Positions 2,406 to 46,100 of a DNA stretch of 49,069 bases are shown here, in pieces. The stretch lies in IMG/VR virus record IMGVR_UViG_3300030389_004018, positions 1 to 49,069 of that record; one strand, given 5' to 3'. The DNA is from a virus. The position numbers were made by a program, and so were the translations under genes. The notes beneath the pieces were generated by a model. That model ran no database searches, was not told where the DNA came from, and saw only the letters and a program-made list of their open reading frames with translations. Position 1 is the first letter of the stretch; each line of letters opens with the position of its first letter.

Positions 2406-2562
2406 TAATGAACAGATGAAACTTAGACAACAAACTTTAAGTATCTTACTTAGAAATTTTAATGATAATCGTGCTATTTATGAGTGTGCTGATGAATGGA
2501 CAAATAAATTTGAAACTACTTCTGGACTAATCAAATACTATAAAACTTATTTTGATAAATAA
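2398..2562 (+). CDS. Small hypothetical protein (54 aa)
   Basis: ATG at 2398 overlaps the preceding stop by 8 nt. It gives 54 residues (MLSNEQMKLRQQ to KTYFDK) ending at TAA 2560-2562. The predicted protein is helical and charged. Its last codons contain the GATAAATA late-promoter box for the next gene. Function unknown. Confidence 0.6.
   Translation: MLSNEQMKLRQQTLSILLRNFNDNRAIYECADEWTNKFETTSGLIKYYKTYFDK
2554..2561 (+). promoter_or_regulatory. T4-type late promoter box GATAAATA
   Basis: GATAAATA matches the NATAAATA late promoter of T4-like cyanophages. It sits 22 nt before the ATG at 2584, a normal distance for a short late-transcript leader. Confidence 0.55.
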
Positions 2563-2583: not shown

Positions 2584-3015
2584 ATGGTAGATAAAAAACC
2601 AGAGCAAAAGGTTGAGGAAAAACCGAAAAATCTTTTAACAAAAATTAAAGAGAGTGTCGATGATAAGGAAGAGCAACTTGCATTTTTATCTACAATTGTA
2701 AGACTTTCTGTTCTTGTATGGTCTGCAGGAATCTTAACTTTAGCATATGTTAAGTTACCAGCGGCATTTAATATACCAGAACAAAAGCTTGATCCAACTT
2801 TCATAGCTTCTGTGTTCACAGGAACTTTAGCGACTTTTGGCGTCCAAGCAGCAGGTAAGAAAAAGGGTGGAGATAGTGGTAGCAGTAGTGCAAACATATC
2901 TAAAAAGGATATGGAGTTCCTTATTGCTAAAGCATCCGAAACTGCACCAGCACAAACAATCAGAATCGAGCAAGCACCAGTATCAATCGTACCGACTGCT
3001 GCACCTAAAAAATAG
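2584..3015 (+). CDS. Membrane protein with two hydrophobic segments
   Basis: Encodes 143 residues: a charged N-terminus (about 1-40), two hydrophobic segments (about 45-64 and 76-96), then a Lys/Gly/Ser linker and an Ala/Pro-rich tail. The GATAAATA box suggests late expression. A short, late-expressed protein with two membrane spans is compatible with a holin, but nothing diagnostic is seen and no endolysin is adjacent. It could equally be a conserved membrane protein of unknown role. Confidence 0.75.
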   Translation: MVDKKPEQKVEEKPKNLLTKIKESVDDKEEQLAFLSTIVRLSVLVWSAGILTLAYVKLPAAFNIPEQKLDPTFIASVFTGTLATFGVQAAGKKKGGDSGSSSANISKKDMEFLIAKASETAPAQTIRIEQAPVSIVPTAAPKK

Positions 3016-3026
3016 GAATTTGAATT

Positions 3027-3692
3027 ATGGATATGGAAGAGGCGATGTTTGGACCAGAGGTAAAAATCTCAAATCCCAAAAAAGAAAAACCAAAAAAGAA
3101 TATTAATTTAACCAAGTGGTTTGCACTTGGTCTTGGTGGAATTTTTGGTCTATCTCATATTGGTTTAATTGGTATGATAAGTCGAAAAGATAATTTACCA
3201 ATCATAAGTCCACCTGTAGGACCTTATACATCATATCTAGCAGAAGTTAGTAAAGAAGGATATCGAATTAGTTACAAAGCAAATGATCCTAAGACAGCAT
3301 TTATTACTAAGGATATCAAAGAGAAAGGTGGTTTCTTAGGATTAGCAAATGAGAAAACTCAGATCACTGAAGAATACTTTATGGATGGTCAAATTAATCA
3401 AGGTGGTTCTGTTTCGAATCATAGATCTTGGATGGATCAACCACCTGGTTTAACTAATAAACAAGCAGAAGAAATATCTGCAGCAAAATCAGAAGAATGC
3501 ATCAAGGCAATTGGATCAGCAGAAGGCACAGGTAGATTAGTTGGTACAAGTGTTGGTGCAGCTGCTGCTCCTACTCTTTCCTCTATTCCCTTTGTTGGTT
3601 GGGTTGCTGCAGGTTGGGTAGCAATGTTTGGAGGTAATCAAGGTGCAGATATTGGTGGTAATATGGCGGAAAACTTAAATAAAAATTGTTAA
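3027..3692 (+). CDS. Membrane-anchored hypothetical protein
   Basis: Encodes 221 residues. A Lys-rich cytoplasmic start is followed by one hydrophobic segment near 31-50, a soluble central region, and a C-terminal Gly/Ala-rich segment (GTSVGAAAAP, GWVAAGWVAM, GGNQGADIGG). That segment has small-residue spacing like a glycine zipper and may insert in or associate with membranes. It follows the 2584 gene by 11 nt and probably shares its late promoter. Function unknown. Confidence 0.75.
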   Translation: MDMEEAMFGPEVKISNPKKEKPKKNINLTKWFALGLGGIFGLSHIGLIGMISRKDNLPIISPPVGPYTSYLAEVSKEGYRISYKANDPKTAFITKDIKEKGGFLGLANEKTQITEEYFMDGQINQGGSVSNHRSWMDQPPGLTNKQAEEISAAKSEECIKAIGSAEGTGRLVGTSVGAAAAPTLSSIPFVGWVAAGWVAMFGGNQGADIGGNMAENLNKNC

Positions 3693-7110: not shown

Positions 7111-7819
7111 CACCTCTGAGAAAATTATGAGTCAAATTTTTAATATATTTCCTACAACAATTTATGTTGGAGAGGTTATTGGTCATGAAAGTTTTAAGAG
7201 TGAATTTTTAAAATTATACGATAAATTTGATTATGAAGAGAATGATTTATCTAATACTGTAAGTGAAGGTCAGGTTGATCCACTTATTCATCTAGAACCA
7301 TCAATGGATGATATGTTTAAAGAAATTATTAAACATATAAAATCTTATGTTTTAGACACCCTGAAATTTAAAAATATGTTTAATTATAGTATCACAAAGA
7401 CTTGGATTTCTAGAACAAGAGATAATAAAGAAATCCCCTGGCATATTCATTCAACAAGTCATATTTCTTTTGTTTATTATTTGAATATACCACCTTATTC
7501 TCATACCACAAAATTTTTAAACAATGAGAATTATAATAGTCTATTTCTTGGTTCTAATTCTCATAATAAAAATGATGATAAAAATATGATTTCCGAGTTT
7601 AATGCTCTTAATTGTAAAACTTTTTTTATACACCCAGAAGAGGGTCATGTCGCAATATTTCCTAGTAGAGTATCACATGGGACAAAGTGTATAAATCCAG
7701 AATTTAGTGGTGAAAGATTATCTATTGTGGGTGACGTTAATTTAATTCTAAAGGATGAGCATCTACTTCATTCGATGGGTTTAATAGATGAAAAATATTG
7801 GAGGAAGTATGATGGATAA
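7100..7819 (+). CDS. Putative 2OG-Fe(II) oxygenase (TIGR02466/PF13759-like)
   Basis: Encodes 239 residues. The WHIHSTSHISFVYYLN stretch (114-129) matches the conserved His-rich strand of this phage oxygenase family, with an HxH in place of the more usual HxD. A later FPSRVSHGT supplies the distal His, and GERLSIVGDVN supplies the Arg that binds 2-oxoglutarate. The target is unknown. Unlike the 3797 protein, the whole N-terminal IFPTTIYVGEV start is also typical of this family. Confidence 0.72.
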   Translation: MMNNTSEKIMSQIFNIFPTTIYVGEVIGHESFKSEFLKLYDKFDYEENDLSNTVSEGQVDPLIHLEPSMDDMFKEIIKHIKSYVLDTLKFKNMFNYSITKTWISRTRDNKEIPWHIHSTSHISFVYYLNIPPYSHTTKFLNNENYNSLFLGSNSHNKNDDKNMISEFNALNCKTFFIHPEEGHVAIFPSRVSHGTKCINPEFSGERLSIVGDVNLILKDEHLLHSMGLIDEKYWRKYDG

Positions 7820-8081
7820 ACTACTAATTATACCAATATTCTTTTTAACAATGTGTGCACCTGCACCAGTCACTCCACCTGTAGAGGCGATGGAGGTGGA
7901 AGAAGAATTAATGTGGAAAGCTTTAGAGTATATACAAAACTATAATACGTTACAAAAACAAAAAACAAAACCTGATGATGCTATAAATAGTGCACTGGAT
8001 AATTTTTGGGAGGATAGTTATGGGAGCAATGATCCCACCGAGTCGGAAGAGTTGTTACAATTTTCGGGTGACGGAGATTAA
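7809..8081 (+). CDS. Short exported protein, possible lipoprotein
   Basis: Encodes 90 residues from ATG 7809, just after a GGAGG site. MMDKLLIIPIFFLTMC is a signal-peptide-like start with a Cys at 16, followed by APAPVTPPVEA. The residue before Cys is Met, unlike a standard lipobox, so lipid attachment is uncertain. The remainder is acidic and soluble. It overlaps the nuclease gene by 62 nt and contains a perfect late promoter box for it. Confidence 0.6.
   Translation: MMDKLLIIPIFFLTMCAPAPVTPPVEAMEVEEELMWKALEYIQNYNTLQKQKTKPDDAINSALDNFWEDSYGSNDPTESEELLQFSGDGD
7982..7989 (+). promoter_or_regulatory. T4-type late promoter box TATAAATA
   Basis: A perfect TATAAATA lies inside the preceding gene, 30 nt before the ATG of the nuclease gene at 8020. 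The position suggests separate late expression of the nuclease and following structural-type genes. Confidence 0.6.
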
Positions 8082-8488: not shown

Positions 8489-8722
8489 ATGCAAAAAATT
8501 ATTAATGTAATCGCAATCGCAAGTGGAGTCGTATCACTTACAGTCGTAGGACTTGGAGGATATGTATTCATACGTAAGGATGCAATTATAGATGGAGTCA
8601 AATCTAAAATTACAGAATCAGTCATGGGATCTGTCGGTGGTATGTTACCAGATGTAATGGGAGGAGTGTTACCAGAGACAACAGGACCAGCATTACCTAG
8701 TGCTCCCCTTCCTAAATTTTAA
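8489..8722 (+). CDS. Small membrane protein
   Basis: Encodes 77 residues: an N-terminal hydrophobic helix (about 4-28, INVIAIASGVVSLTVVGLGG) and a Gly/Pro-rich tail with repeated VGGMLPD / MGGVLPE elements. A one-base overlap with the next gene (TAATG) indicates coupling. Function unknown. Confidence 0.7.
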   Translation: MQKIINVIAIASGVVSLTVVGLGGYVFIRKDAIIDGVKSKITESVMGSVGGMLPDVMGGVLPETTGPALPSAPLPKF

Positions 8723-9474
8723 TGGAACCTATTGAAGAAATTAATATACCATTAATCCAACAGATAGGGTCAAGATCATGGATGTATACAATTCCATCTG
8801 TCCCAAACAATGACCCACCTGTAACTTTACAGTTGGGTTTTCCTATTGTTGAGTTACCTGGTTGTGTTGAAACACATCAAGATAATAAAATAGGGGCAAA
8901 TAGATTACCCCTTGATCGTGATTTGGTTAATGATGATCCAAATGGAGTTACAATATTATGTCCAAATGGTGAATATCCATCTTATGATGCGATGAATTTT
9001 GAGGCTGTACAGGCGGTTCCCACAACGGCAGCAGCTCCACCACCAGTTGCACCACCTGCACCAGAGATTCCTGATACTGGTAAAGTTATTCCTCCAGAAA
9101 AAGAAGTGCTTTGTCCTGGTCCAAATCAGTTGAGAGTTGGTGATGTTACTCAATCAGGTGATGAAAGGGTTGTTGGACATCGACTTCTTGGTGATGGAAA
9201 AACCTGTGAGACATTATATGAACCCACTACAGTAGTCGAAAAATTTCTTCCACCATTAAATCAGGCATCAACTGTGACGGCACTCGCAGTTTTTGCAACG
9301 GCAGGAGCTGCAGCGACACCATTATTAATAAGAGTTATAAGACCTGTAATTAAAAAATTATGGACAACAATACAGAAAAAAATAGGTAAAGAAGTTAAGA
9401 GACCTTCTATGGCAGAGGTAAGAACAAATAAGTATCGTGAAAAGAAAGGACTCCCACCGATGAAGAGAAAATAA
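8722..9474 (+). CDS. Hypothetical protein with Pro/Ala linker and membrane span
   Basis: Encodes 250 residues. An N-terminal soluble domain (1-95) is joined by a Pro/Ala-rich linker (about 96-122) to a second small domain with Cys 131 and 157, a hydrophobic segment near 184-201 (ALAVFATAGAAATPLLI) and a very basic tail. This looks like an anchored envelope or virion-associated protein. It ends exactly where the convergent minus-strand gene ends. Confidence 0.7.
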   Translation: MEPIEEINIPLIQQIGSRSWMYTIPSVPNNDPPVTLQLGFPIVELPGCVETHQDNKIGANRLPLDRDLVNDDPNGVTILCPNGEYPSYDAMNFEAVQAVPTTAAAPPPVAPPAPEIPDTGKVIPPEKEVLCPGPNQLRVGDVTQSGDERVVGHRLLGDGKTCETLYEPTTVVEKFLPPLNQASTVTALAVFATAGAAATPLLIRVIRPVIKKLWTTIQKKIGKEVKRPSMAEVRTNKYREKKGLPPMKRK

Positions 9475-10170
9475 TTACTTAATTCTTCCAATTGAAACAG
9501 TTTTTAAATCTTTAGCCTCACCTTTTGGGTTTGGTGTAATCTTATGATTATGTTTGCCAACTACACCAGGTGGATTAATTAACATAACATCAGCACATAC
9601 ACTATGATAAGGAGACTTTGGGTGAAATACAATTCCAGCCTTCATTAGTTCTCCACAGTTTTTAAGTCTTGCAATCTCAAAGTCTAATCTTTTGTTTGCA
9701 ACTGTTTGAGTCATTAAATCTATATTTGCCTGTGCTGCTTCTTTACATTGTTTTTGTAATTCTTCGTCAAGTGGTTTTGACCATGTGGCAGAGAAACCTA
9801 ATGAAATTGTATAGTTATCTTGTTGACCAGTTCTTGTAGGGATTTCATATAAGATTTCACCAGGATTGTCTGGAATATTATCATCATCATTGTCTGCGTT
9901 GTTGTACACTGGATCGAGGTACATTCTTTCGAATGGTTTTTTATATGAAACTGATGCATTTGCATAGGGTGTAAGGTTTCTGGTAGGTCCTTGACACTGT
10001 ATCCCACCACCATACGTGTTTGTTATATACGGACCTTGTAAAACCTGAATTGCCTGGTTGGTCACTGAGCCCGAAGAATTAGCTATGGGATTTGCAGTTG
10101 CACTTACACCACCCACATCAGTAGCAAATGAAGGGGTTGCTGTTCCTAATGTGAGACTCAGTGCGATCAG
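9475..10170 (-). CDS. Exported protein of unknown function, possible CTG start
   Basis: The open frame runs back to 10338, but its first 56 codons are a shadow of the neighbouring gene. The protein proper begins with a signal-peptide-like LIALSLTLGTATPSFA and continues as a 215-residue secreted protein with four Cys. No ATG, GTG or TTG lies in frame near this point. The CTG at 10170 overlaps the upstream stop as CTGA, like the TTGA couplings elsewhere here, and is the best start candidate. Convergent with the 8722 gene. Confidence 0.65.
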   Translation of the reverse strand: MIALSLTLGTATPSFATDVGGVSATANPIANSSGSVTNQAIQVLQGPYITNTYGGGIQCQGPTRNLTPYANASVSYKKPFERMYLDPVYNNADNDDDNIPDNPGEILYEIPTRTGQQDNYTISLGFSATWSKPLDEELQKQCKEAAQANIDLMTQTVANKRLDFEIARLKNCGELMKAGIVFHPKSPYHSVCADVMLINPPGVVGKHNHKITPNPKGEAKDLKTVSIGRIK

Positions 10171-10610
10171 TTTGAGAACGTGCTTGTCGTGTTTGTGACA
10201 CTTTCTATGGTGGTAGTGCGCTGTATTATTGTTTGCGTCTTGAGTCCTGGTCCAGAATAACTTTCTGTGAATTGGAAAGCTACTCCTGGTAATGTCATTG
10301 TGAAGTTTGGTTTTGTGTTTAGATCTAAACCAGTCCATGTTGAAGTCACTCCGTCAATGGTATTTTCAGTCGTCAAATTTGCTGTTGGTGATATTGATGT
10401 CCCGTCCATTTCTACGTTAGTACCAGTGATGACATACTGATAGCCTGTATCATAATTCATCGAATTTATGGTCTCCACCACCGTAGAAGTAGTTTCGGTG
10501 GTTGAAGTCATCGCGCCCTGGGTGAAATTAGGTACCACTGGCACAGCAATCGCAGTCCTCGCACTCGCAAGGACACATGCAACCACACTTAGGACATATA
10601 TCTTTTTCAT
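10167..10610 (-). CDS. Exported Thr/Ser-rich protein
   Basis: Encodes 147 residues beginning MKKIYVLSVVACVLASARTA, a clear signal peptide likely cleaved near AIA. The mature part is rich in Thr, Ser, Val and Asn with no Cys (TSTTETTSTVVETIN, TIIQRTTTIESVTNTTS), a composition suited to beta structure on the cell surface or in the periplasm. It has its own sigma70-like promoter on the minus strand. It sits between two other exported proteins. Function unknown. Confidence 0.75.
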   Translation of the reverse strand: MKKIYVLSVVACVLASARTAIAVPVVPNFTQGAMTSTTETTSTVVETINSMNYDTGYQYVITGTNVEMDGTSISPTANLTTENTIDGVTSTWTGLDLNTKPNFTMTLPGVAFQFTESYSGPGLKTQTIIQRTTTIESVTNTTSTFSN

Positions 10611-10615
10611 TAGTC

Positions 10616-10643
10616 ATTATAACATAAATTAGTTAATTGTCAA
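10616..10643 (-). promoter_or_regulatory. Minus-strand sigma70-like promoter
   Basis: Reading the minus strand, TTGACA (10643-10638), a 16-nt spacer and TATAAT (10621-10616) form a near-consensus promoter with a TGT extended -10. Transcription would begin almost at the ATG at 10610, giving a nearly leaderless message. Confidence 0.6.
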
Positions 10644-11141
10644 TTCACTAACAAATTGTCCTACAGCGTCAGTACCAGCTCCGCCAGCTGTTATTGTCAT
10701 GACACCCGCAGATGTAATTGTTCCAGCTAAGTCTCCAGCAACACCACCACTTGATGTTGTAACCTCACCAAATGCTGGCATATCAGCTACGACACCTGCA
10801 GCTACATCAACACCTGAACCAATAGTATTTACTGCATCACCATAAGTGAATGATTCACTAAAGCTATATGCAGACCCTGCTGTGGTCAATTCATAATCAG
10901 TTTGCTTCATGGTTGCTGCTGCCGTCACTGATCCTGGTGCGGTTAACCCACCAAAATCTGCTGAGTCTGCAACGGAAATATTGTTACCACTAGAACTATA
11001 TGTCGATCCAATACGAGTCGATTGAGTCGCAGCTGCATCAACTGAAAGTTGTGTGCTGGTCGATAATTTATGCACCAAGTCTGCCTTTGCAGTTAATGGT
11101 GCGGTCATCAAAAGCATAACGATAGCTAAAAATTTTTTCAT
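10629..11141 (-). CDS. Exported Gly/Ser/Thr/Ala-rich protein
   Basis: Encodes 170 residues from ATG 11141: MKKFLAIVMLLMTAPLTAKA is a signal peptide with likely cleavage after AKA. The mature part has low charge and is dominated by Gly, Ser, Thr, Ala and Val, with no Cys, resembling fibre- or adhesin-like beta proteins. An in-frame TTG at 11153 would only weaken the signal peptide. It is the first gene of the minus-strand trio and divergent from the 11227 gene. Function unknown. Confidence 0.75.
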   Translation of the reverse strand: MKKFLAIVMLLMTAPLTAKADLVHKLSTSTQLSVDAAATQSTRIGSTYSSSGNNISVADSADFGGLTAPGSVTAAATMKQTDYELTTAGSAYSFSESFTYGDAVNTIGSGVDVAAGVVADMPAFGEVTTSSGGVAGDLAGTITSAGVMTITAGGAGTDAVGQFVSELTIN

Positions 11142-11187
11142 GCCCTGAGACAATATACCTATGTGCTATTTAGGTTTTAAAAAAGTG

Positions 11188-12408: not shown

Positions 12409-12437
12409 TTGACACAATCTCAAAGAAAGTGTATACT
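12409..12437 (+). promoter_or_regulatory. Sigma70-like promoter
   Basis: TTGACA (12409-12414), 17-nt spacer, TATACT (12432-12437), overlapping the end of talC. It drives the leader and gene at 12560. Confidence 0.75.
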
Positions 12438-12559: not shown

Positions 12560-12919
12560 ATGATTAAATCAACAATCGCTGCAGTAGCAGCATCTCCATT
12601 CCTATTCGCTGGTGCAGCTTTTGCTGGTCCATACGTTAACTTGGAAGCGACTGGTTCTTATCCTGAAGGAGCATACGCATCTGGTGGACTAGAAGCAGTA
12701 ATCGGATACGAAGGAGCAACAGAAAGTGGAATCGGATACTATGTATCTGGTGGTCCTACAGTCACTCATACAGAAACTACTGATGAGTTTGGTGATGTTG
12801 AACTTATTGGATATGTTGGAGCAACATACGACAAGTTCTACGGAGAAGTCTCTGGTGTAACTACACCTGCTGACGAAATTGACTGGTCTGCAAAAGCAGG
12901 TGTGAAGTTCACATTCTAA
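12560..12919 (+). CDS. Small exported beta-barrel-like protein
   Basis: Encodes 119 residues with a signal peptide (MIKSTIAAVAASPFLFAGAA, cleavage near AFA/GPY). The mature part alternates polar and aromatic residues, Gly-rich (ASGGLEAVIGYEG, GIGYYVSGGPTV, GYVGATYDKFYGEV) and ends KFTF with a terminal Phe, as outer-membrane strands often do. It is too short for a complete porin but could be a small barrel or periplasmic protein. It has its own promoter, the shared leader element and a terminator, so it is a single-gene unit. Confidence 0.75.
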   Translation: MIKSTIAAVAASPFLFAGAAFAGPYVNLEATGSYPEGAYASGGLEAVIGYEGATESGIGYYVSGGPTVTHTETTDEFGDVELIGYVGATYDKFYGEVSGVTTPADEIDWSAKAGVKFTF

Positions 12920-15327: not shown

Positions 15328-15662
15328 AAGAAACAAGACCTTGGGGATCCTATGAAGTTATAAATCAAGGATCAAGATATAAAGTAAAATGTATAGAAGT
15401 TGCTGCTGGATTGAGTTTGTCTCTTCAAAGACATACTCATCGAGCAGAGCATTGGGTCGTTGTTGAAGGAACAGCGCTCGTACACATTGATGGTGAAAAA
15501 AAATTAGTGATTGAAAATGAAAGCACCTTTATCCCTGTTGGTATTAAACATAGATTAGAAAATCCTGGTAGAATACCACTTAAGATAATCGAAGTTCAAA
15601 GTGGTGCTTATTTGGAAGAAGATGATATAGAAAGATTTGAAGATGATTATGGGAGATCCTAA
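15324..15662 (+). CDS. manA: Mannose-6-phosphate isomerase, type II cupin domain
   Basis: Encodes 112 residues equal to the C-terminal cupin of ManC/type II phosphomannose isomerases, which convert fructose 6-phosphate to mannose 6-phosphate. Hallmarks are [29 protein letters not shown] with metal-binding His/Glu, [13 protein letters not shown] and a [18 protein letters not shown] end. The guanylyltransferase half of ManC is absent, so GDP-mannose would need a host enzyme. It feeds the GDP-mannose 3,5-epimerase downstream. Confidence 0.88.
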
Positions 15663-15663
15663 A

Positions 15664-16686
15664 ATGAAAAAAGTATTAATCACAGGTGGTGCAGGTTTTA
15701 TTGCACACCATTTAATTGGTCACATATTGGAGACCACAGACTGGGAAATCATAACACTAGATCGTCTAGATTATAGTGGTAATTTAAATCGATTACATGA
15801 TTTAATGATTTCTTTTATGCCCGAAACAAAAAGAAGAGTTAAGATTGTTCATCATGATTTAAAGGCAGAATTAAATCCATTAGTTCGTAGTGAGATAGGA
15901 GATGTAGATTACATATTACATCTTGCAGCAGGATCACATGTTGACCGAAGTATAGATTATCCAATGGAATTTGTAATGGATAACGTTGTAGGAACTTGCA
16001 ACATTCTTGAGTTTGCTCGACTTCAACCCAACCTTGAAAGATTTGTATATTTTAGCACTGATGAAGTATTCGGTCCTGCACCAAATGGTATTAAGTATAA
16101 AGAGAATGATAGATACAATTCTACAAATCCATACAGTGCTACAAAAGCAGGTGGAGAGGAGTTAGCAGTTGCTTATCAGAATACATATAATCTACCTGTG
16201 TATATCACACACACTATGAATGTATTTGGGGAAAGACAACATCCAGAAAAATTCATACCCATGTGTATTCGAAAAACAAGAGATAATGAGTATATAACAA
16301 TTCATAGTGATTCAACAAAGACAGTACCAGGTTCAAGACATTATATACATGCTGGAGATGTCGCATCTGCTGTTCTATTCTTGTTAAATTATGAAGGAAC
16401 ATTTAAACCTACATGGGGTAATGCTAAATGTCCTAAGTTTAATATTGTTGGTTCTGAGGAGTTAAATAATTTAGAGTTAGCACAAATCATTGCTGATACC
16501 CAAGAAAAAGAATTATTATATGAAATGGTAGATTTTCATTCATCAAGACCAGGACATGACTTGCGGTATGCTCTTGATGGTGATAAAATGAAAGAACTTG
16601 GATGGGAACCTGCCAAATCTGTCCGAGAAAGGATTGCTGAAGTTACAAAGTGGACTCTTGCAAACAGACGTTGGATTCGAATTTAG
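15664..16686 (+). CDS. NAD-dependent sugar-nucleotide 4,6-dehydratase (RmlB-like)
   Basis: Encodes 340 residues, extended short-chain dehydrogenase fold. NAD site GGAGFIA is at 8-14, catalytic STDEVFG at 131-137 (the Asp-Glu pair of dTDP-glucose 4,6-dehydratases) and YSATK with Y157 and K161. The HPEKFIP segment is also typical of RmlB. It would make a 4-keto-6-deoxy sugar; whether the substrate is dTDP-, UDP- or GDP-linked is not clear. The ATG at 15664 is chosen because the upstream in-frame codons lie within the cupin gene. Confidence 0.85.
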   Translation: MKKVLITGGAGFIAHHLIGHILETTDWEIITLDRLDYSGNLNRLHDLMISFMPETKRRVKIVHHDLKAELNPLVRSEIGDVDYILHLAAGSHVDRSIDYPMEFVMDNVVGTCNILEFARLQPNLERFVYFSTDEVFGPAPNGIKYKENDRYNSTNPYSATKAGGEELAVAYQNTYNLPVYITHTMNVFGERQHPEKFIPMCIRKTRDNEYITIHSDSTKTVPGSRHYIHAGDVASAVLFLLNYEGTFKPTWGNAKCPKFNIVGSEELNNLELAQIIADTQEKELLYEMVDFHSSRPGHDLRYALDGDKMKELGWEPAKSVRERIAEVTKWTLANRRWIRI

Positions 16687-16695
16687 GAGAAAAAC

Positions 16696-17730
16696 ATGAA
16701 AAAAGCATTAGTATTAGGCGCAGGTGGATTTATTGGAAGTCATATGGTAAAAAGACTTCGTAAAGAAGGTTACTGGGTGCGTGGTGTGGATCTGAAACAT
16801 CCAGAATTTTCTAAAACTGAAGCAAATGAATTTATTATCGGAGATCTACGTGATGGAAATTTTGTGCGTCGTGTGATCCAATTTAAAGGATATCAAGGAA
16901 ACTTTTTCAATGATATTCCATATAAATTATTAGAATCATTTGATGAGATTTATCAGTTCGCTGCCGACATGGGTGGTGCAGGATTTGTATTTACTGGTGA
17001 GAATGATGCATCTATTATGCATAACTCTGTATCAATCAATTTGAATGTTCTCGAAGAGCAACGTAAATTTAATGAAGCATATAAAGTAAATAAAACAAAA
17101 ATATTTTATTCTGGTTCTGCTTGCATGTATCCAGAGCATAATCAACTTGATCCAAATAATCCAGATTGCCGTGAATCATCAGCATATCCCGCAGACCCCG
17201 ACTCAGAATACGGATGGGAGAAACTCTTCTCCGAGCGTCTTTACCTTGCTTATAGTCGGAATCATTCTATGCCTGTACGGATTGCTCGATACCATAACAT
17301 CTTCGGTCCTGAAGGAACTTGGGAAGGAGGTAGAGAGAAAGCACCAGCAGCAATCTGTAGAAAGGTAGCTCATGCAGGTCTTGCCGATAGCATCGAAGTA
17401 TGGGGTGATGGTAAGCAGACTCGATCCTTTTTGTACATTGACGAATGCATTGAAGCAACTCGAAGATTGATGGAATCTGATTTTATAGGACCTGTGAATA
17501 TTGGTTCAGAAGAGATGGTTACTATCAATGAGTTGGTAAGAATAACTGCAAAAGTAGCACAAAAATCCATAGGCAGAGATCACATTGACGGTCCTTTAGG
17601 TGTTCGAGGTCGTAACTCGAATAATGATTTAATACGTGAGAAACTTGAATGGGATTATCAACAATCTCTTGAAGAAGGTATTCGTAAAACTTATGTATGG
17701 ATTAGTGAACAAATAAATGCTGGCATTTAA
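16696..17730 (+). CDS. GDP-mannose 3,5-epimerase-like protein
   Basis: Encodes 344 residues closely patterned on plant GDP-mannose 3,5-epimerase. NAD site GAGGFIG lies near 8-14, then ADMGGAGFV at 90-98, SGSACMYPE with C143, YGWEK with Y172 and K176, and a TWEGGREKAPAA stretch with K215. These match the catalytic Cys, Tyr and Lys residues known for the Arabidopsis enzyme. Product would be GDP-L-galactose (or GDP-L-gulose). A GGAGAAAAAC ribosome binding site precedes the ATG. An intact enzyme is likely. Confidence 0.88.
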   Translation: MKKALVLGAGGFIGSHMVKRLRKEGYWVRGVDLKHPEFSKTEANEFIIGDLRDGNFVRRVIQFKGYQGNFFNDIPYKLLESFDEIYQFAADMGGAGFVFTGENDASIMHNSVSINLNVLEEQRKFNEAYKVNKTKIFYSGSACMYPEHNQLDPNNPDCRESSAYPADPDSEYGWEKLFSERLYLAYSRNHSMPVRIARYHNIFGPEGTWEGGREKAPAAICRKVAHAGLADSIEVWGDGKQTRSFLYIDECIEATRRLMESDFIGPVNIGSEEMVTINELVRITAKVAQKSIGRDHIDGPLGVRGRNSNNDLIREKLEWDYQQSLEEGIRKTYVWISEQINAGI

Positions 17731-18508
17731 TCATCTTGGTAAGTTGGGACAACTGGGAAATCAGATGTTTCAGTATGCCTCCACAAAAGGTATAGCATCT
17801 AAATTAAATATTCCTTTTATGATACCTGACCATAAAGAAATATTTGACGATGGTATAGGTAATAGATATCCTATATTAATTCATGATGCTTTTAATTTGG
17901 ATGGTAAAAGAGGTATGTTACAGACTCAGGATTACATTCAAGAAACTACTTTTCACTTTGAAGAAAAGTTTTTTAATATATTACCTAGTACTAATGTATC
18001 ATTATGGGGATTTTTTCAGACTGAAAAATATTTTAAACATATTGAGGATGATATAAGAAAAGATTTTACTTTTCATAATGATATTTTTATTGCATGTAAA
18101 GAACTAAGAGAAACTGTAGATAATCCTATAGCTCTTCATATACGTAGAGGAGATTTTATTTGGAACAATGCACATCATCCACCATTAGGATTGGATTATT
18201 ATGAGAAAGCATTAAAAGAATTTGATGATGACAGGAATGTTATTATATTTTCTGATGATACTAAGTGGTGTAAGGAACAAAACTTATTTGAGAGTGATAG
18301 ATTTATTGTCGCCGAAGATAATGATCAGTTCCATGACTTATGCTTGATGAGTATGTGTGATGATTTTATTATTGCTAATTCAACATTCTCTTGGTGGGGT
18401 GCTTGGTTGGGTAATAGAGGAAAAGTTATTGCACCTAAGAAATGGTTTGGAGAAAATTTAAATCATGATACAAAAGATCTTTATTGTGAGGAATGGATTT
18501 TGTTATGA
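17717..18508 (+). CDS. Alpha-1,2-fucosyltransferase-like (GT11)
   Basis: Encodes 263 residues of family GT11, which transfers fucose from GDP-fucose to galactose in alpha-1,2 linkage. GQLGNQMFQYA is at 11-21, the donor-binding HIRRGDF at 141-147, and ANSTFSWWGAWL at 220-231, all highly conserved in the family. It overlaps the epimerase gene by 14 nt. The donor could instead be the L-galactose nucleotide made by the preceding gene, since L-galactose and L-fucose differ only at C6. That is an inference. Confidence 0.88.
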   Translation: MLAFNHLGKLGQLGNQMFQYASTKGIASKLNIPFMIPDHKEIFDDGIGNRYPILIHDAFNLDGKRGMLQTQDYIQETTFHFEEKFFNILPSTNVSLWGFFQTEKYFKHIEDDIRKDFTFHNDIFIACKELRETVDNPIALHIRRGDFIWNNAHHPPLGLDYYEKALKEFDDDRNVIIFSDDTKWCKEQNLFESDRFIVAEDNDQFHDLCLMSMCDDFIIANSTFSWWGAWLGNRGKVIAPKKWFGENLNHDTKDLYCEEWILL

Positions 18509-36768: not shown

Positions 36769-37140
36769 ATGGGTATTCTCCAGTCATCTAAAGCTTATGT
36801 TTTTAATTTACAGACAACGAGTTCAGCAGAGGCAAAACGATTATGGAGGAGGGATATAAAAGAAAAATGGCACTATGAATGTGCCTATTGTGGGAATAAA
36901 AATAATCTGACAATTGATCATGTAGTTCCAAGATGCAAAGGTGGAACAGATTTTACGAAGAATGTTGTATGCTGTTGCAACACTTGTAATCAAAGAAAGG
37001 GGCATGAATCTTGGGAAGATTGGTATTTTAATCAGGAATTTTTTAATATGAATCGATATAATAAAATTCAAGAGTGGATGAAACCTGACCCTGTTAAAAA
37101 CTTATTCTTATATAAACCAAGAAGAAATAATTTAACATAA
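36769..37140 (+). CDS. HNH endonuclease
   Basis: Encodes 123 residues with C38-x2-C41 (ECAYCG), LTIDHVVPRCKGG holding the DH pair (D50, H51), and CCCNTCNQRKG near 68-78, the standard zinc-HNH core. Freestanding HNH genes in T4-like phages are usually homing endonucleases. It sits between the LamG genes and the giant fibre gene, a possible target of its spreading. Confidence 0.88.
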   Translation: MGILQSSKAYVFNLQTTSSAEAKRLWRRDIKEKWHYECAYCGNKNNLTIDHVVPRCKGGTDFTKNVVCCCNTCNQRKGHESWEDWYFNQEFFNMNRYNKIQEWMKPDPVKNLFLYKPRRNNLT

Positions 37141-37195: not shown

Positions 37196-40100
37196 ATGGC
37201 GACGCCAATACGAATAAAAAGATCTGCGGTATCTGGAAAGAGACCACAGTTAACAGATTTACAGGTAGGAGAATTAGCGCTTAATACTTATGATGGATCT
37301 CTTTTCACTGAGAGAGATACTGGTGGAGTTGGAATTGCAACAACTGTAAGTAATCTTACACCATGGACGGAAAGTTATGGTGCATCTTCAATAAGTTACT
37401 TAAATTCGGTTGGAATTGGAACCACTAATCCAGTAGCAAAATTAGATGTTACTGGAGATTCAACCTTTACTGGCAGCATGACTGTTGCGAATGGAAATAT
37501 TATAGGAGATGATGTAACAAATATAAGTGGTATTAATTCAGTAACTGCAACATCATTCTTTGGTGATGGTTCTGGATTAACTAATACTGGTGCAGTATTA
37601 AGTGCAGCATCTGGTTCTCAAAGATTAGTTTTAACAAGTCTTACATCAGGTATTATGACAACCACTGCAACCGATGCAGATTTGTCTTTCAATGCTACGA
37701 GTAATTTATTAAGTGCAGGAAACGCTCAGTTTGATGGTAATGTTTCTATTGGTGGGACATTAACATACGAAGACGTAACTAATATAGATGCAGTTGGATT
37801 AATTACTGCTCAGAGTGGTATTGATGTTACTGGAGGTTCTGTAAGAATTGGTGATAATGCGAGTTATACCGCAAATAGTAATGGTGATAATCTAGTAATT
37901 GGTAGTTTATCTGGTAATCATGGAATTACAATAATCTCTAATAATACTATTTCTAATAACGCTGCAAGTTTATTTTTTGGAGATTCTGGTTCTCCGATAG
38001 CTGGGGCAATTCGATATTTTCATGCTTCTAATTACATGATGTTCCGTGTTGCTGGTGGTGAAAGACTTCGCATCACAGGAACAGGTCACATTGGTATTAA
38101 CAGCTCTTCTCCAACACACGAGTTAGAAGTTCTTGGAGATAGTTCATTAAAAGGTAATTTAAATGTAACAGGTGTTTCAACATTCTCTAATAAAATAGTC
38201 GTAGATACCAGTAGTATATCAGAATTTAAAGGTAATGGAAGAATAAAAATAAGTGGTGCTTCTCAAACCACCAAATTACATTTACAGAGAGGCAGCACTT
38301 CCGATGTTGCAATGAGATTTGAAAATAACCATGGTAGTATTTACGCTGGACTCGCTGCTGGTTTTAATAACAACCAAAGATTTATTATTGGACTAGATGC
38401 TGATTTATCTAATGATCCAATATTAATAGCTAATGAAACTAAGCATGTAATTGTTGGAAGTTCTACTACTGGTGTAACTCTTAGTGGTGCAACAGGTGAT
38501 TTCAAGGCAACTGGTATAGCAACAATCGGAACTGGTGTTACTGTATTAACAAATGGAAATGTATCCATTGGTGGAACCTTAGAACTTTTCAATACAACAG
38601 GAAACCCAAATAATCATCCATCGGAAATTAAACTAAGTACTTTTTCAATAGGTCAGCATAATAATGTTGGCACTATGAAAATCATGAATAATAATGCCAC
38701 AGGGACGTTAATTATTGGTGCTGGTGGTGGAGGAGGATATGGTGGTATTACCCTATTCAATAAAAACTTAAATGCTAAGTATCTGCAAGCAAATAATGAG
38801 GGATCTGTTGATTTATATCATGATGGTGATTTACGTTTTGGGACGACTGGTTATGGAGTTACAGTCTTTGGTACTACTGAAACTCAACAATTAAATGTAA
38901 CTGGATTCACAACATTATCTACTGGCACCAAATTCTTCCAACATACACCACGAATTGAGATGCAGGGTAATAGCACTGCACAATTCCAACTTACAAATGC
39001 AACCTCTGGCACCACTCTTAATGATGGAATGGTAATGGGATTTTCATCTAGTAGTAAAGTTGGTTTTATCAATGTAAATGAGAGTGCTCATGGATTTATA
39101 TTAAAAACTAGTGGAAATGCAACTACTGCTGAGAGAATTAATATTTCTGGTGTTGGAACAGTAAGCATAAGAAAAGGCACCACTGAAGAAATGATTACTG
39201 CAAGACCAGATGGAGCTGTTGAATTATATCATGATAATGTCAAGCGTCTTGCGACCACAAATTCGGGAGTTGATATAACTGATAATTTAAATGTTTCTGG
39301 TGTATCAACATTTAATAATCAGATATTTACAAATAAAATATCAAATTCAGGTATAATAACCTCAAATATGATTCATCTCACAGGTGGATCATTTACTGCT
39401 CCCGCTCCTGGTGGTGATACAAGAAATGATACTGCAATTGTTGTAAATGAAAACTTTGGCATTTATGCATTAGAATTACAAGTAGGTTCAGGTAATAATG
39501 ATAAATTTTTAAGAAGAATTATTGAAAAAGAAAATAATATTCTAACCATAGGTCAGGATGATACCTCTCTCTTTGCTGCAATAAACATAAGACCAGGTAA
39601 TACTGGAACTGTAAGTATTGGAAATAGTGGTGCAGTCAGTCTGGTAGGAGTATCTGAGGATGGAACTACTGCCGAAATAGAAAAATTAAGAACTGTTGGA
39701 TCTGGAATTACAGTTTTTGGAACAACCGAAACTCAAAAATTAAATGTTACTGGTGTTTCTACCTTTGTAGGAAATGCTCAGTTTAATGGTAATATCGGTA
39801 TCGGAACTACTAATCCACAGCAAGAACTTCATATACAAAATAATGTTCCTATCATAAGATTCACAAAACAAAATGGAACAACAGACAATAAAGACTGGAA
39901 TATTGGTGCTGGAACTCCTCAAATTTTAAGAATACAAGCAATCAGAGATGATGGTGGTGGTGGTGGACAATTATTTGATTTTTATAGAAATGCTGGTGAT
40001 GTAGAAGAATTCCGTGGAAAATCAGGAGCTGCTTATTGGTTTACAATAAACAATGATACTAGAAGAGTCGGTATTGGAACTGATAATCCACAAGCACTAT

Positions 40101-43100
40101 TAGATGTTTCGTCAGACAGTCCTAATCTTAGAATAACAGATTTGAATAGTTTGGTTGGTGCTGGTAATACATCATATACTCAATTAGCAAATTTAAATGG
40201 AAATACTTATGTTTATACGAGAGCAAATGAGAATAATGGTAGTTATCTAATAGGTGGTCATGGTAATGGTGTATTTGACGAGTTTATTCGCATTACATCA
40301 GCAGGTAATGTTGGTATCGGAACTGCTAATCCACTTGGAACTGGTGCACTCGCAAATAATACTGCAACACTAGCAGTTGGTATTTTAACTGCAAATACAA
40401 TTTATGGAAATGTCGTTGGTGGTCTCTCTCCTACTGGAGACGTATTTATCGGTGGTAATTTAGATGTAGACGGACAAACAGATCTAGATGTATTAAATGT
40501 TTCAGATACGGCAACATTTACTGGAAATGTAAGTGCTTCAAATTTAATAGTATCACGTGATGGAAATGCAAATATTAGTTTAGTAGATACTGGGCATGGA
40601 TTTAGTGCTTCAACTATTGGAATATCAAATGGTGGTCGAGATTTAGCCATAACAGCACCAAGAGATATACGTTTAAAACCTTCAGGTGGTGAGGATGGGA
40701 TAGTTATTGAAAACGGCGGAGCCGTGGAATTGTATCACAATAATGTCAAGAAAGCAGAAACATCAGTAGGCGGACTTCAAATAACAGGAACTACTGATAC
40801 TGATCAGTTAAATGTATCAGGTGTTTCAACATTCGTGGGTAATGCTGAATTTAAAGGAAATGTATCAATCGCAGGTACATTAACCTATGAAGATGTAACA
40901 AATATAGATTCAATTGGTATTATAACAGCACAGACAGATATTCACGTTGGTGCAGGTATTTCAGTTGTTGGTGTTGGGTCTTTCGGTTCATTAGTAGTTG
41001 GTGGTGGGACAACATTACAAAGTTCTACAACTACAGGCACGGGTAAAGCATTAAGAATAATATCACCTTCAGGATATATTGAAGTTGGTGCACAAAATAC
41101 CAGTAACGCTCATTTCTATACAGATAGACAAAGGTTTTATTTTAATAAAAAAATAGTAGTTGATGGAGGTGCAATTGGTTCCTTCAATGAAGATTTAGTA
41201 CTTGTAACTGATGGAAGTGAAGAAAGAATAAGAATCAAAAATGATACAGGTCACGTTGGTATAAACAGCACAGAACCTGAAACAATGTTAGATGTCGTTG
41301 AAAGTTCTACAAGTCGAAATTGGACACCAACGAGTGGAGTTACGGCGTTATTTGAACGTAATAATGGTACTTTAATTACACTAGTTAGTAATAATAGTTC
41401 TGTTGTTGGAATTGATTTTGGTGATTCGAATGATAATAATGCTGGATTCATTCACTATGACCATAGTGATAATAGTATGTTCTTTAGAACAAATACTGAT
41501 GAACAACTTCGCATCACATCAACAGGTAATGTTGGTATCGGAACTGATAATCCCACAGAAAAACTTCATTTAGCAGCAGACTCTGCATTTCAAATTCTTT
41601 TAAAAAGAAGTGGTGCTTCTCCTAGTGAGGTAATATTCGGGAATGAAGGTAATACTGCCAGAATCTCAAATAATACAAATGGAATTGATTTTCGAACAGG
41701 TTCGACTCCATCATCTTCGATGCTTATTGACCAGAATGGTAAAGTCGGGATCGGAACTGATGATCCTGATGAGTTATTGGAATTAGGTGGAACTGACCCC
41801 GTATTAAAACTTCATGATGTTGCTGGAGGTTCAACTCACGGATTAAAGGTGAGTCATGACGGTGTAAATGCCACAATTAATTTAGAATCTGCTGGTTTAT
41901 TATCCATAAAACAAACAAATGGTAATGCTGCTGCTAATGGAATTGCATTTAATACAGGGAATGTTGATACAGAAAAAGTTCGCATCACAGGTATTGGTTC
42001 AGTTGGTATTGGAACCAATGATCCAGATGGTCAATTACACATTTCTTCTGGAGCAGGTGCTAATGGTGATTGTCGTGTTTATATTGAGGCAGACGCAAAC
42101 AATACTGACGAGGGAAGCAATCCATTTATTATCTTCAAAAATGATGGAGGTTATGAAAATGCTTCTGTTTGGTGTGGAAATGCTCCTGATGGAGAGGGTG
42201 CTAATGACAATAGTTTAAATCTTTCTGCAGCAACAGATGTTAATGGTGGTATTAGATTTTTCACTAGTGATACTGCTGGTGGTTGGGAAACTGCACCAGA
42301 AAGAGCTCGTATCACATCAGATGGAGAACTTTTAATAAATGCAGTCACTGAGAGATCATACGTTGATGGTGCTGGATATACTCAAACTCCAAAACTACAA
42401 GTAGAATCAAATAGTAATGTCGATACTGCAATATCATTAAGATATAATTCTGGTGGTGGTGCTGATGTTAGAAGAGCATCATTTATATTTGCAAGAACTG
42501 CCGATGGAACTGCAGTATCAAATGACAGTGTTTTAGGTGAAGTTCTCTTTATGGGAGAGGGCAACAGTACTCTGGAAAAAGCAGCATCCATTCGTGCAGA
42601 AGTTGATGGAACACCAGGCACAAATGATATGCCTGGTAGATTGATATTCTCTACAAGTGATGATGGTTCGGATTCTCCGACAGAAAGACTTCGCATTACA
42701 TCAACAGGTAATATCGGTATCGGAACTATTGATCCTGCATATACTTTAGATTTTGGTAAATCATCATCGTCAACAATCAGACTTGTAAGTGGAAATGATA
42801 AAACAGCAATACGTATTGGTGCTGGTGGTAACGCTAGTGATGTAACTTTAATTAGAGTTGATGGTGTAACTGCAAATCATGATGGGGAATCTGATGATAG
42901 TGCATCTGGGTTCTCATTTAAATATGTGGGATCAGGAGCTGGAGTTAATAATAGATTTTCAATTTGTCCAGATAATCAAACAGGGACACAATTTGAAGGA
43001 GTTACAGTTCTTCAAGATGGTAAAGTCGGTATCGGAACTGCTAGTCCTGATGCAATACTTCATGCAATAGGTGAGATTAAAGTTGATGCCTCTGATTATG

Positions 43101-46100
43101 CAAGAGTTTTATATGCCCGTAATGATACAAACTTATGGTCTGTTGGATTAAGAGACACTGATGATTTCTGGTTCTTTAGAGAAAGTGGTAGTGGAAATGC
43201 TATTTTTCAACATGGTAATGTTGGTATCGGAGAGACAACACCAACAGCATCCTTAGAGATAGCAGCAACAGATAAAGCAGGATTAAGAATAGTTGATAGT
43301 CATATTAATAATAACGCACCTTATATTGAAGTTATTGGAAAAAGAAATGGTCTTAATAATAGTCAATCTTTCGGTGGTCAGATATTTTTAGCTGGAAATG
43401 TAGGTGATGCAGGAGTTCATACTGGAAAAATTTTAGGTGCCGTTCTCTTTGGTGGTAATCATACAGATGGATCTTTATCTAATATTGCATATCCAGCTTC
43501 AATAGCTGGTGTTTCTGGTGGTAGTTTTGATTCTGTAACAGATATGCCGACAGATTTGATATTTCGTACTGGATCCACAGGTAGAACTCCAACAACACCT
43601 AATGTGGCTAGTGGTGATGAAAAATTCCGCATCACATCAGATGGTAATTTAATACACACATCAGTTAATAAAACAATTAGTTTAGTATCAACTCAAAACG
43701 CAGTAAACGCTGGTACAAAAATCGCATTCTTTGGTGCAAATCGATATACCACTGATCAAGAATTTGCATCAATCAAAGGTTTACTTAAAAATAATTCAGG
43801 TGGTTCTGGAAAACAAAAAGGTCACTTGTTATTCACAGTTGGAAGTAATTCCCACCAACACATAATGGATGATGATGGTAATGTTGGTATCGGAACTGAT
43901 GACCCATCATCAAAATTACATGTTTTTGGAAATGCAAATTTCACTGGTGGTGCAGATTTTGGGGGAAATGTAGATATTCAGGGAGATTTGAGTGTAAGTG
44001 GAACATTAACCTATGAAGACGTAACAAATATTGATTCGGTTGGTATTATAACAGCACAATCGGGTATTCATGTGGTTGGGACAGCTTCATCAGTTGGTAT
44101 TGGAACTAGTGCTCCAATAGTAAAACTACATGTTGTCGGAAATTCTAAATTTGAAGGTACTGGAAGATTTACCAATGATGTAACCATTAGTAGACCTAAC
44201 ACTGCGACATTAACAGTTGAGACATCTGCATCTTCTAGTTATGATGCATTGATTAAAATACGTGGTGCAAGAACAGGTCTCACCAATGATACATCAATGT
44301 TGCAGTTTGATAATAGCACAAATACACCCTATGTCATGGCGCAGATCGCTGCACAAGATCCAGTTGCAGATCACGGAGAAAAAAAAGGTCAATTAATTTT
44401 TAGAACTAATTCTGGTAGTAACCTTACTGAAAAAATGCGTATCGAGTCAGGTGGTAATATTGGTATCATAACCACTAATCCAAATGCAAAGTTACATATT
44501 GGACCTTTGAATGGTGATACAACACATCATTTATATCTTGCTTCTGGAAATAATGACTACGGAATAGTAATCGATACACATGATTTTGGTGCAGCAAATG
44601 TTCCATTAAGAATACTTACAAGAAGTAACAATAATGATACTGAAAGAGTTAGAGTATTGCAATCTGGTAATGTTGGTATTGGAATAACGAATCCAGCAGA
44701 TATTTTAACAATTAGTGGAGGTGGTGCTGCCGATAATGTTTCTTTAAGGATTATTGATCCGACTAATGCTGATTTTGGATCACATTTTAGTTACTTTGAA
44801 AATGACACTGATGGAACTAACTTAAATGAAGTCGTCGTTGGTGGAGTTACAGATAATGTAAAAAATAAAGTAATCAGAATTGCTAGAGATACTGGTGATG
44901 ATGTCATGTTCATCAATACCTCTAAGAGAGTTGGTATTGGATCTATGAGTCCAAAAGCAAAATTAGATATTTTAGACACTGGTTCTCAAGGTATTCTTAT
45001 TTCCTCTGGATCAACACAAGCAAATGATACTAATAAAGCAATCAGAGTAAGAAATGGAATTGGAATTACCGCAGATACTTTCGTTGTAAGTCATAGAGGA
45101 CAAGTTGGAATTAATACTTCTGGTGTTAGTGGTGTTAATGTTGGTATCGGCACCATTACTAACAGCGATGTCAGACTTAAAGTTACACATGATGGACTTA
45201 ATGAAGTTATACAGCAGTGGGGAGGTCATCAAGGTCCAATTGCTGGTCACAGATTTATGGAGTTATATTCTCCAGAGAATGATGCTAATACTGACTACTT
45301 TAAATTTAAAACAGGCAATGCAATTAAATTTAGAATTGATAGCATAGATGCAATAGCAATGAATTCAGATGGTAAAGTCGGTATCGGAACTGATAACGTA
45401 CAAGAAAAACTTCATGTACGTGGTAATGGTAATGTAACATCTTTTGTTGAAGCTGTTGCTGGTGATGCAATACTTGATTTATCAAATACTGGAGATGGTA
45501 ATTATAGCGGAATAAACTTTACAAGGCAAAGAAGCACTGGATCAGTTGTTGGTGGATCAATTTGGATGCCATCAGTTACTGCAAATAATAGTGCATTATT
45601 GTATCTACAAACACAATCTGCTTCAGCACAAGCAGGTCAGAGTGGTGCATTAAGCGATAATAATGGTGTTAGAGTAAAATTAGCATCACAACCTGGTGGT
45701 GTTGCTGCAGATAGTGCATTTAGTGTTGAAGTAGGTGCTTCAGAAAGACTTCGCATCACATCTACTGGTCAAGTTAAAATTACTGGAGTCGATGATCAAG
45801 ATAATTTAGTAGTTAATGGTGGTGGTAGCCAATTTGCAGTTCATCAAGATGATACAGATGGTGAAGTTAGTTTAAGAGCACAAGATGGAAGTGGAAATAA
45901 TTACACAAAGTACATGACTTTCTTCACTGAAAATGGTTCAGGACCAGAAGAAAGACTTCGTATCACAGAACCAGGTAATGTCGGTATCGGAATTACAACA
46001 CCACAGGCAAAATTAGACGTTTATGGAGATATAAGGGTACGTGATAAAATTGTATCTAGTCAGTATTCAGAAAGTTTCTTAGATTTTGATGATGATAATT

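Follow-up and report, generated by a model that had tools for sequence, protein, structure and literature searches.

We suggest that three minus-strand genes of a T4-like marine cyanophage, GC237, GC236 and GC235, act together with GC234 and a DUF6450 protein as a late envelope-disruption (lysis) module that would be spanin-like in action and not homologous to spanins; we give this reading a probability of about 0.4. The genes lie in a 49,069-nt virus record (IMGVR_UViG_3300030389_004018, positions 1-49,069; hereafter the window) that also carries psbA, transaldolase, PTOX and ribonucleotide reductase genes. Because the exported proteins are late, occur all-or-none with two membrane proteins, and are found in phages with like hosts and unlike virions, they most likely act on the envelope late in infection, at lysis.

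Three minus-strand genes in a known cyanophage cassette

A sequence-only reading of the window had described a minus-strand trio at 9475-11141, and the genes are there. Going by the annotation of P-HM1, they are the T4-GC237, GC236 and GC235 clusters (genes 1, 2 and 3), and are thus already known but uncharacterised cyanophage clusters. Conservation is very wide: tblastn against 50,697 phage records found relatives of the three in 431, 403 and 412 of them, all named as cyanophage, Synechococcus or Prochlorococcus phage, or marine or uncultured virus. The trio was also said to be the only minus-strand genes, which holds as far as tested, as none of 10 other minus-strand open reading frames tested matched a PHROG. 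All three proteins belong to PHROG families of unknown function. The description of them as lacking known domains fails for gene 2, as GC236 is DUF6322 (PF19847; 126.3 bits against a curated cut-off of 30.6).

GC236 and GC237 are beta-rich and Ser/Thr/Gly-rich, and are remote paralogues (hhalign 96%). A sequence search of solved structures gave no credible match, with only marginal monobody-type matches for GC237, and eight cassette proteins searched against NCBIfam had no match. The AlphaFold models obtained for mature GC235 and GC237 (pLDDT 53 and 58) had no usable fold and were too poor to support an outer membrane protein fold. With these models, Foldseek returned only their own families at significant E-values, except for one unnamed, 19%-identical protein. 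There were ten matches in cellular assemblies, most of them in contigs from MAGs or single cells, besides a 188-kb Nonlabens contig. Wherever the contig is long enough it contains the phage cassette, so we regard these matches as phage or contaminating contigs. Contigs bearing the cassette are recorded under Formosa, Lewinella, Euryarchaeota, Bacteroidetes, Nonlabens xiamenensis and Chloroflexota, among other names, which probably reflects phage contamination of those assemblies.

Sullivan et al. (2010; PMC3037559) reported a cluster of GC218/219/234/235/237 in 15 of 16 cyanomyoviruses, considered it "clustered for functional reasons" and possibly mobile, and proposed no function in the main text. 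The window carries that cassette, with identical families, a convergent GC234 and the "plasmid stability" neighbour: homologues of GC234, GC235 and GC237 are clustered, with GC236 alongside (Table 1). The P-HM1 gene annotated GC218 sits at the position of the DUF6450 match, and we therefore equate GC218 with DUF6450. The internal start, the export signals and the occurrence in T7-like podoviruses that we describe below are absent from the main text of that study.

Table 1. Positions of the cassette genes and sequence elements in the window.
Feature	Positions	Strand	Remarks
Late-type promoter motif	2554..2561	+	within an ATAAATA run, before DUF6450
DUF6450 (PF20048, phrog_2714)	2584..3015	+	T4-GC218 by position in P-HM1; two-TM, holin-like
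GC219-like (phrog_605)	3027..3692	+	N-terminal TM; adjoins DUF6450
Lipoprotein-like small protein	7788..8081	+	same cassette; LTMC in the window, LVGC or ITAC lipoboxes in relatives
phrog_568 ("plasmid stability")	8489..8722	+	77 aa; one N-terminal TM, Pro-rich tail
GC234 (phrog_570)	8722..9474	+	predicted N-out/C-in; one C-terminal TM, basic tail; convergent with the trio
GC235 (phrog_848)	9475..10338	-	begins within GC236, -1 frame; mature part ~9478-10122, four conserved Cys
GC235 hydrophobic core and AxA site	10123..10176	-	LKLIALSLTLGTATPSFA, cleavage before TD
GC236 (DUF6322, PF19847, phrog_650)	10167..10610	-	exported, beta-rich, 147 aa
Dual-coded overlap	10170..10338	-	GC236 end; GC235 basic leader and first signal-peptide codons
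Sigma-70-like box	10616..10643	-	TTGACA-16-TATAAT, 12/12; before GC236
GC237 (phrog_564)	10629..11141	-	exported, beta-rich, 170 aa; signal peptide, mature from D22
Late promoter	11167..11174	-	CCTAAATA; 33 nt before the GC237 ATG

The variable position of these genes in some genomes, and the "plasmid stability" neighbour, both noted in PMC3037559, could indicate a cassette that is a mobile passenger, carried about by that neighbour and with no defined role at the envelope. We consider this very improbable. That protein has 77 aa and a single TM segment, and its name looks misleading; the families are nearly universal and conserved, the late promoter of the trio is conserved, and podoviruses retain the set as a unit. 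Farther along the window, a run of nucleotide-sugar epimerase and glycosyltransferase genes (15637-18508, +) is possibly involved in surface-sugar synthesis.

Export signals and the start of GC235

The trio proteins are almost certainly exported. All have type I signal sequences: MKKFLAIVMLLMTAPLTAKA in GC237, with cleavage before D, MKKIYVLSVVACVLASARTAIA in GC236, with cleavage before VP, and the core listed in Table 1 in GC235. Sequence statistics bear these signal peptides out. For GC235, the residue at -1 was A or S and that at -3 small or aliphatic in 72 of 75 relatives. Four cysteines were kept in 74 of the 75, and the same cysteines occur in P-SSP7; they would be expected to form disulfides in a mature protein located outside the cytoplasm. 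A secreted phage product made during infection, as the sequence-only reading had proposed, agrees with the signal peptides, the four GC235 cysteines, the late promoter and the detection of at most one of five cassette proteins in virions (both below).

Each gene had been thought to begin with its export signal. All three products do carry one, but GC235 starts upstream of its signal, within GC236. We analyzed 76 sequences with full context and found no start codon close to the hydrophobic core of GC235 in the marine cyanomyoviruses. Instead, the frame was open back to a single ATG that precedes the GC236 stop by 163-175 nt; in the window, the sole ATG is 54 codons upstream of the signal, in the -1 frame relative to GC236. 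One relative lacked the internal ATG and had a disrupted GC236 frame. Setting it apart left 75 sequences (window included), all of which keep the ATG and have a stop-free overlap of 54-58 codons, although these counts do not represent independent events because the sequences are related. In contrast, 98% of synonymous reshuffles of GC236 gained a stop.

In the internal ATG, the A falls at the third position of a GC236 codon and TG opens the next codon, TGG. The codon supplying the A is ACA (50 sequences), TCA (19) or CAA (6), and so encodes Thr, Ser or Gln, and always ends in A; ACA accounts for about 35% of Thr codons in non-overlapping GC236. The GC235 leader had a net charge of +8.5, compared to +3.2 expected. 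Conservation at synonymous sites rose only modestly in the overlap (0.51 versus 0.41), indicating that the leader is constrained in kind (open and basic) more than residue by residue. Taken as statistics on sequences, these comparisons establish the overlap and its ATG. Most of ten more distant relatives have an ATG in the same frame, and one has TTG at the same place.

The -1 frame and the lack of a start near the hydrophobic core in marine cyanomyoviruses could also mean that GC235 is a -1 frameshift fusion to GC236, with no start of its own. There is little chance of this: the ATG is kept in 75 of 75 sequences even though the GC236 codon contributing its A may specify Thr, Ser or Gln, and the AxA site would fall in the middle of the fusion. 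Furthermore, P-SCSP1u encodes GC235 at the other frame offset, with an ATG at -53, and the protein has an ordinary signal peptide there. This arrangement, together with the short leaders of GC235 in P-SSP3 and DSL-LC03, favours independent initiation of a secreted GC235. In P-SSM7 and NATL1A-7 the upstream ATGs lie at a greater distance. Extended bacterial signal peptides, such as the autotransporter ESPR and the FhaB type, likewise have a basic N-terminal extension of ~50 residues followed by a hydrophobic core and an AxA site; the GC235 extension differs in being encoded within another gene and in its very variable length among phages.

The S-RSM4 record has no gene annotated for GC235, and the P-SSP7 annotation places the start of GC235 after its signal peptide, giving what appears to be a truncated gene. 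The conserved out-of-frame start is an example of annotation missing real N-termini.

Late promoters and the link to T7-like cyanophages

A near-consensus promoter had been noted in front of gene 2. A perfect sigma-70-like box is present there, but few relatives share it (about 10 of 76), and the TTGACA of the box falls inside conserved C-terminal codons of GC237. We rejected it as the main GC236 promoter because it is not conserved; it is probably local or incidental. The conserved promoter precedes gene 1. We found [CA]TAAATA (counting C or A at the second base of the late motif) 22-45 nt before GC237 in 61 of 67 relatives, compared to a mean of 1.6 in shuffles, a statistic that establishes the conserved late promoter of the trio. 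The motif resembles NATAAATA, the described cyanophage late promoter (PMC2984593), as expected of a T4-type late gene. GC236 follows close behind GC237, and the trio is very likely under late control. The late motif also precedes DUF6450 in 14 of 29 relatives (1.1 in shuffles). It was not found before GC234, consistent with a downstream place in an operon. Elsewhere in the window, there are late-type motifs at 12435, with a small predicted cyanophage outer-membrane beta-barrel (PF24653) at 12560-12919 (+), and at 37139, just upstream of a single 3276-aa open reading frame (37196-47026, +).

The late promoter and the beta-rich sequences would also suit virion-associated or assembly proteins that are exported and become part of the particle as fibres or decorations. 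We think this improbable. Signal peptides are unusual for tailed-phage virion proteins, which assemble in the cytoplasm, and these families are common to T4-like and T7-like particles. According to Table 2 of PMC3037559, at most one protein among all genes found in 15 genomes was detected in virions; because the five cassette genes belong to that class, at most one cassette protein can be virion-detected. Of ordinary virion components under late control, which would have spoken against a secreted product, the late control applies to the trio, and Table 2 limits virion detection to at most one in five. Poor conservation in other phages would have counted against it as well, and the trio is very widely conserved. 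The virion proteome of S-CREM2 was uninformative in this respect, as that phage has no module.

A distant match to GC235 in P-SSP7 pointed to T7-like podoviruses. Genes 42-45 of P-SSP7 and their counterparts in P-SSP3 form one row: GC234-like, DUF6450 (Pfam E=2e-32 in P-SSP7), GC236 (E=1.7e-32) and GC235 (E=2.4e-53 to phrog_1755). The similarity of the podovirus proteins to GC234 is weak (E 0.03 to 9e-14). In both phages GC235 begins inside GC236, and in P-SSP7 the row lies between the tail fibre and terminase genes.

We searched the whole records of 20 phages to determine how these families are linked. GC235, GC236 and DUF6450 co-occurred in the same 14 phages, and none of the three was found above marginal scores in the other six (Syn5, S-PM2, S-CREM2, P60, P-SS2 and T4); S-CREM2 had one sub-threshold DUF6450 match. 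GC234 followed the same 14/6 split, with P-SCSP1u as one weak or missed call, and GC237 was seen in T4-like carriers only. In a broad tblastn search, GC235 was present in 461 records and DUF6450 in 446, none named for another host group. The counts establish the phyletic linkage and the sharing with T7-like phages, and the four families, with GC237, very probably constitute a functional module. Its presence in phages with unlike virions but like hosts argues for a role at the envelope. Syn9 and S-TIP37 carry module genes and Syn5 does not. A published cyanophage genetic system (PMC8776855), with Synechococcus WH8109 as host, covers suitable strains; Syn5 was engineered in that host too.

A possible role in lysis, and other envelope functions

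If the module acts in lysis, the trio would be transcribed late as an operon from the CCTAAATA promoter, and GC237 and GC236 would be secreted via their ordinary signal peptides. Ribosomes would also initiate at the ATG within GC236, in the -1 frame, producing GC235 with its long basic leader and its own signal peptide. GC234 would be a C-tail anchor in the inner membrane; the N-out/C-in topology is predicted from its C-terminal TM segment (the only one in 80 of 89 sequences by hydropathy), its +13 tail and the positive-inside rule, and it usually has four cysteines. Once in the periplasm, GC236 and GC237, both beta-rich, and a disulfide-bonded GC235 would exert their effect at the outer membrane and contact the ectodomain of GC234. 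DUF6450 (two TM segments in 40 of 48 by hydropathy) would open the inner membrane, the set would then disrupt the outer membrane, and virions would leave. We infer the contacts between these proteins and the holin activity of DUF6450; a role of the module in lysis is plausible, at somewhat less than even odds.

In T7, the holin and Rz/Rz1 genes are located between tail fibre and terminase, the same place that the cyanopodovirus pair occupies with its two-TM protein. Like Rz/Rz1 of lambda and T7 (18.5/18.7), the module has a late, exported, overlapping gene pair, GC235 being embedded in part in GC236 as in two-component spanins. It differs in having no detected sequence similarity, no N-terminal TMD of the i-spanin type (the TM of GC234 being C-terminal), beta-rich outer proteins and no lipobox: lipobox-like sequences were found in 1 of 75 GC235, 3 of 76 GC236 and 0 of 67 GC237. 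Because the lipobox and N-terminal TMD were not found, our claim is that the module works like a spanin, not that it is one. GC234 shares a C-terminal TMD with the unimolecular spanin T1 gp11, but has no signal or lipobox. DUF6450 resembles class II holins in its small size, two TM segments, charged ends and late motif, and has no sequence match to a named holin family.

Endolysin genes were not consistently adjacent to the module. Only in DSL-LC03 was there a PF00959 lysozyme within a few kb. A PF00959 match was absent from 11 of 14 module phages, and two others had the domain in long frames; standalone PF00959 lysozymes occur in S-PM2 and T4, and P60 has an annotated lysozyme without a Pfam match. 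We set aside an anti-correlation between module and endolysin, as DSL-LC03 has both, two domains are in long frames, and only PF00959 was considered.

A survey of spanins (Kongari et al. 2018) listed about twenty cyanophages as spanin-less and asked about another route. The list includes P-SSP7, P-HM1, P-HM2, P-RSM4, P-SSM2/4/7, Syn1/9/19/33, S-RSM4, S-ShM2, S-SM1/2, S-SSM5/7 and others, and also S-PM2, Syn5, P60 and P-SS2. The survey suggested that an N-out/C-in protein with a C-terminal TMD and an outer membrane protein might replace the i- and o-spanins. Most of the module carriers that we checked (e.g. P-SSP7, P-HM1, P-SSM2, Syn9, S-SM1) are on the list. The module cannot be the answer for all spanin-less phages, since S-PM2, Syn5, P60 and P-SS2 do not have it.

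Exported, beta-rich, Ser/Thr/Gly-rich proteins might instead alter the host surface late in infection by coating or plugging the outer membrane, and so prevent superinfection, grazing or the re-adsorption of progeny to debris; a further predicted cyanophage outer membrane protein lies nearby at 12560. We judge such surface remodelling unlikely. Exclusion functions are usually early and the trio promoter is late, and such proteins would not be expected to occur all-or-none with a C-tail anchor and a two-TM protein. That T7-like phages have these genes too, that one partner has two TM segments, and that the podovirus row lies between tail fibre and terminase all favour envelope disruption at lysis over blocking of adsorption, and the surface fibre or adhesion blocker suggested earlier found no specific support.

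The small lipoprotein of the cassette may be the true o-spanin, which would leave the trio with another envelope role, for example in forming a porin or helping uptake so that the infected cell stays fed or stable, while the lipoprotein and other proteins carry out lysis. The LVGC sequence in relatives of the lipoprotein, and the label "OMP1 protein" given to GC237 relatives in the S-CAM1 and S-RIM8 records, are in line with this. The linkage to the holin-like DUF6450, the podovirus position and the late timing all count against it, and we regard it as quite unlikely.

Lysis by cyanophages frees carbon fixed by Prochlorococcus and Synechococcus. The late, exported, all-or-none module of T4-like and T7-like cyanophages provides named candidate genes for opening of the outer membrane. 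We propose, tentatively, that it is a non-homologous, previously unrecognised system by which marine cyanophages achieve lysis, with an exported overlapping pair taking the place of the lipoprotein spanin. If true, this would explain how progeny are released in many of the "spanin-less" cyanophages.
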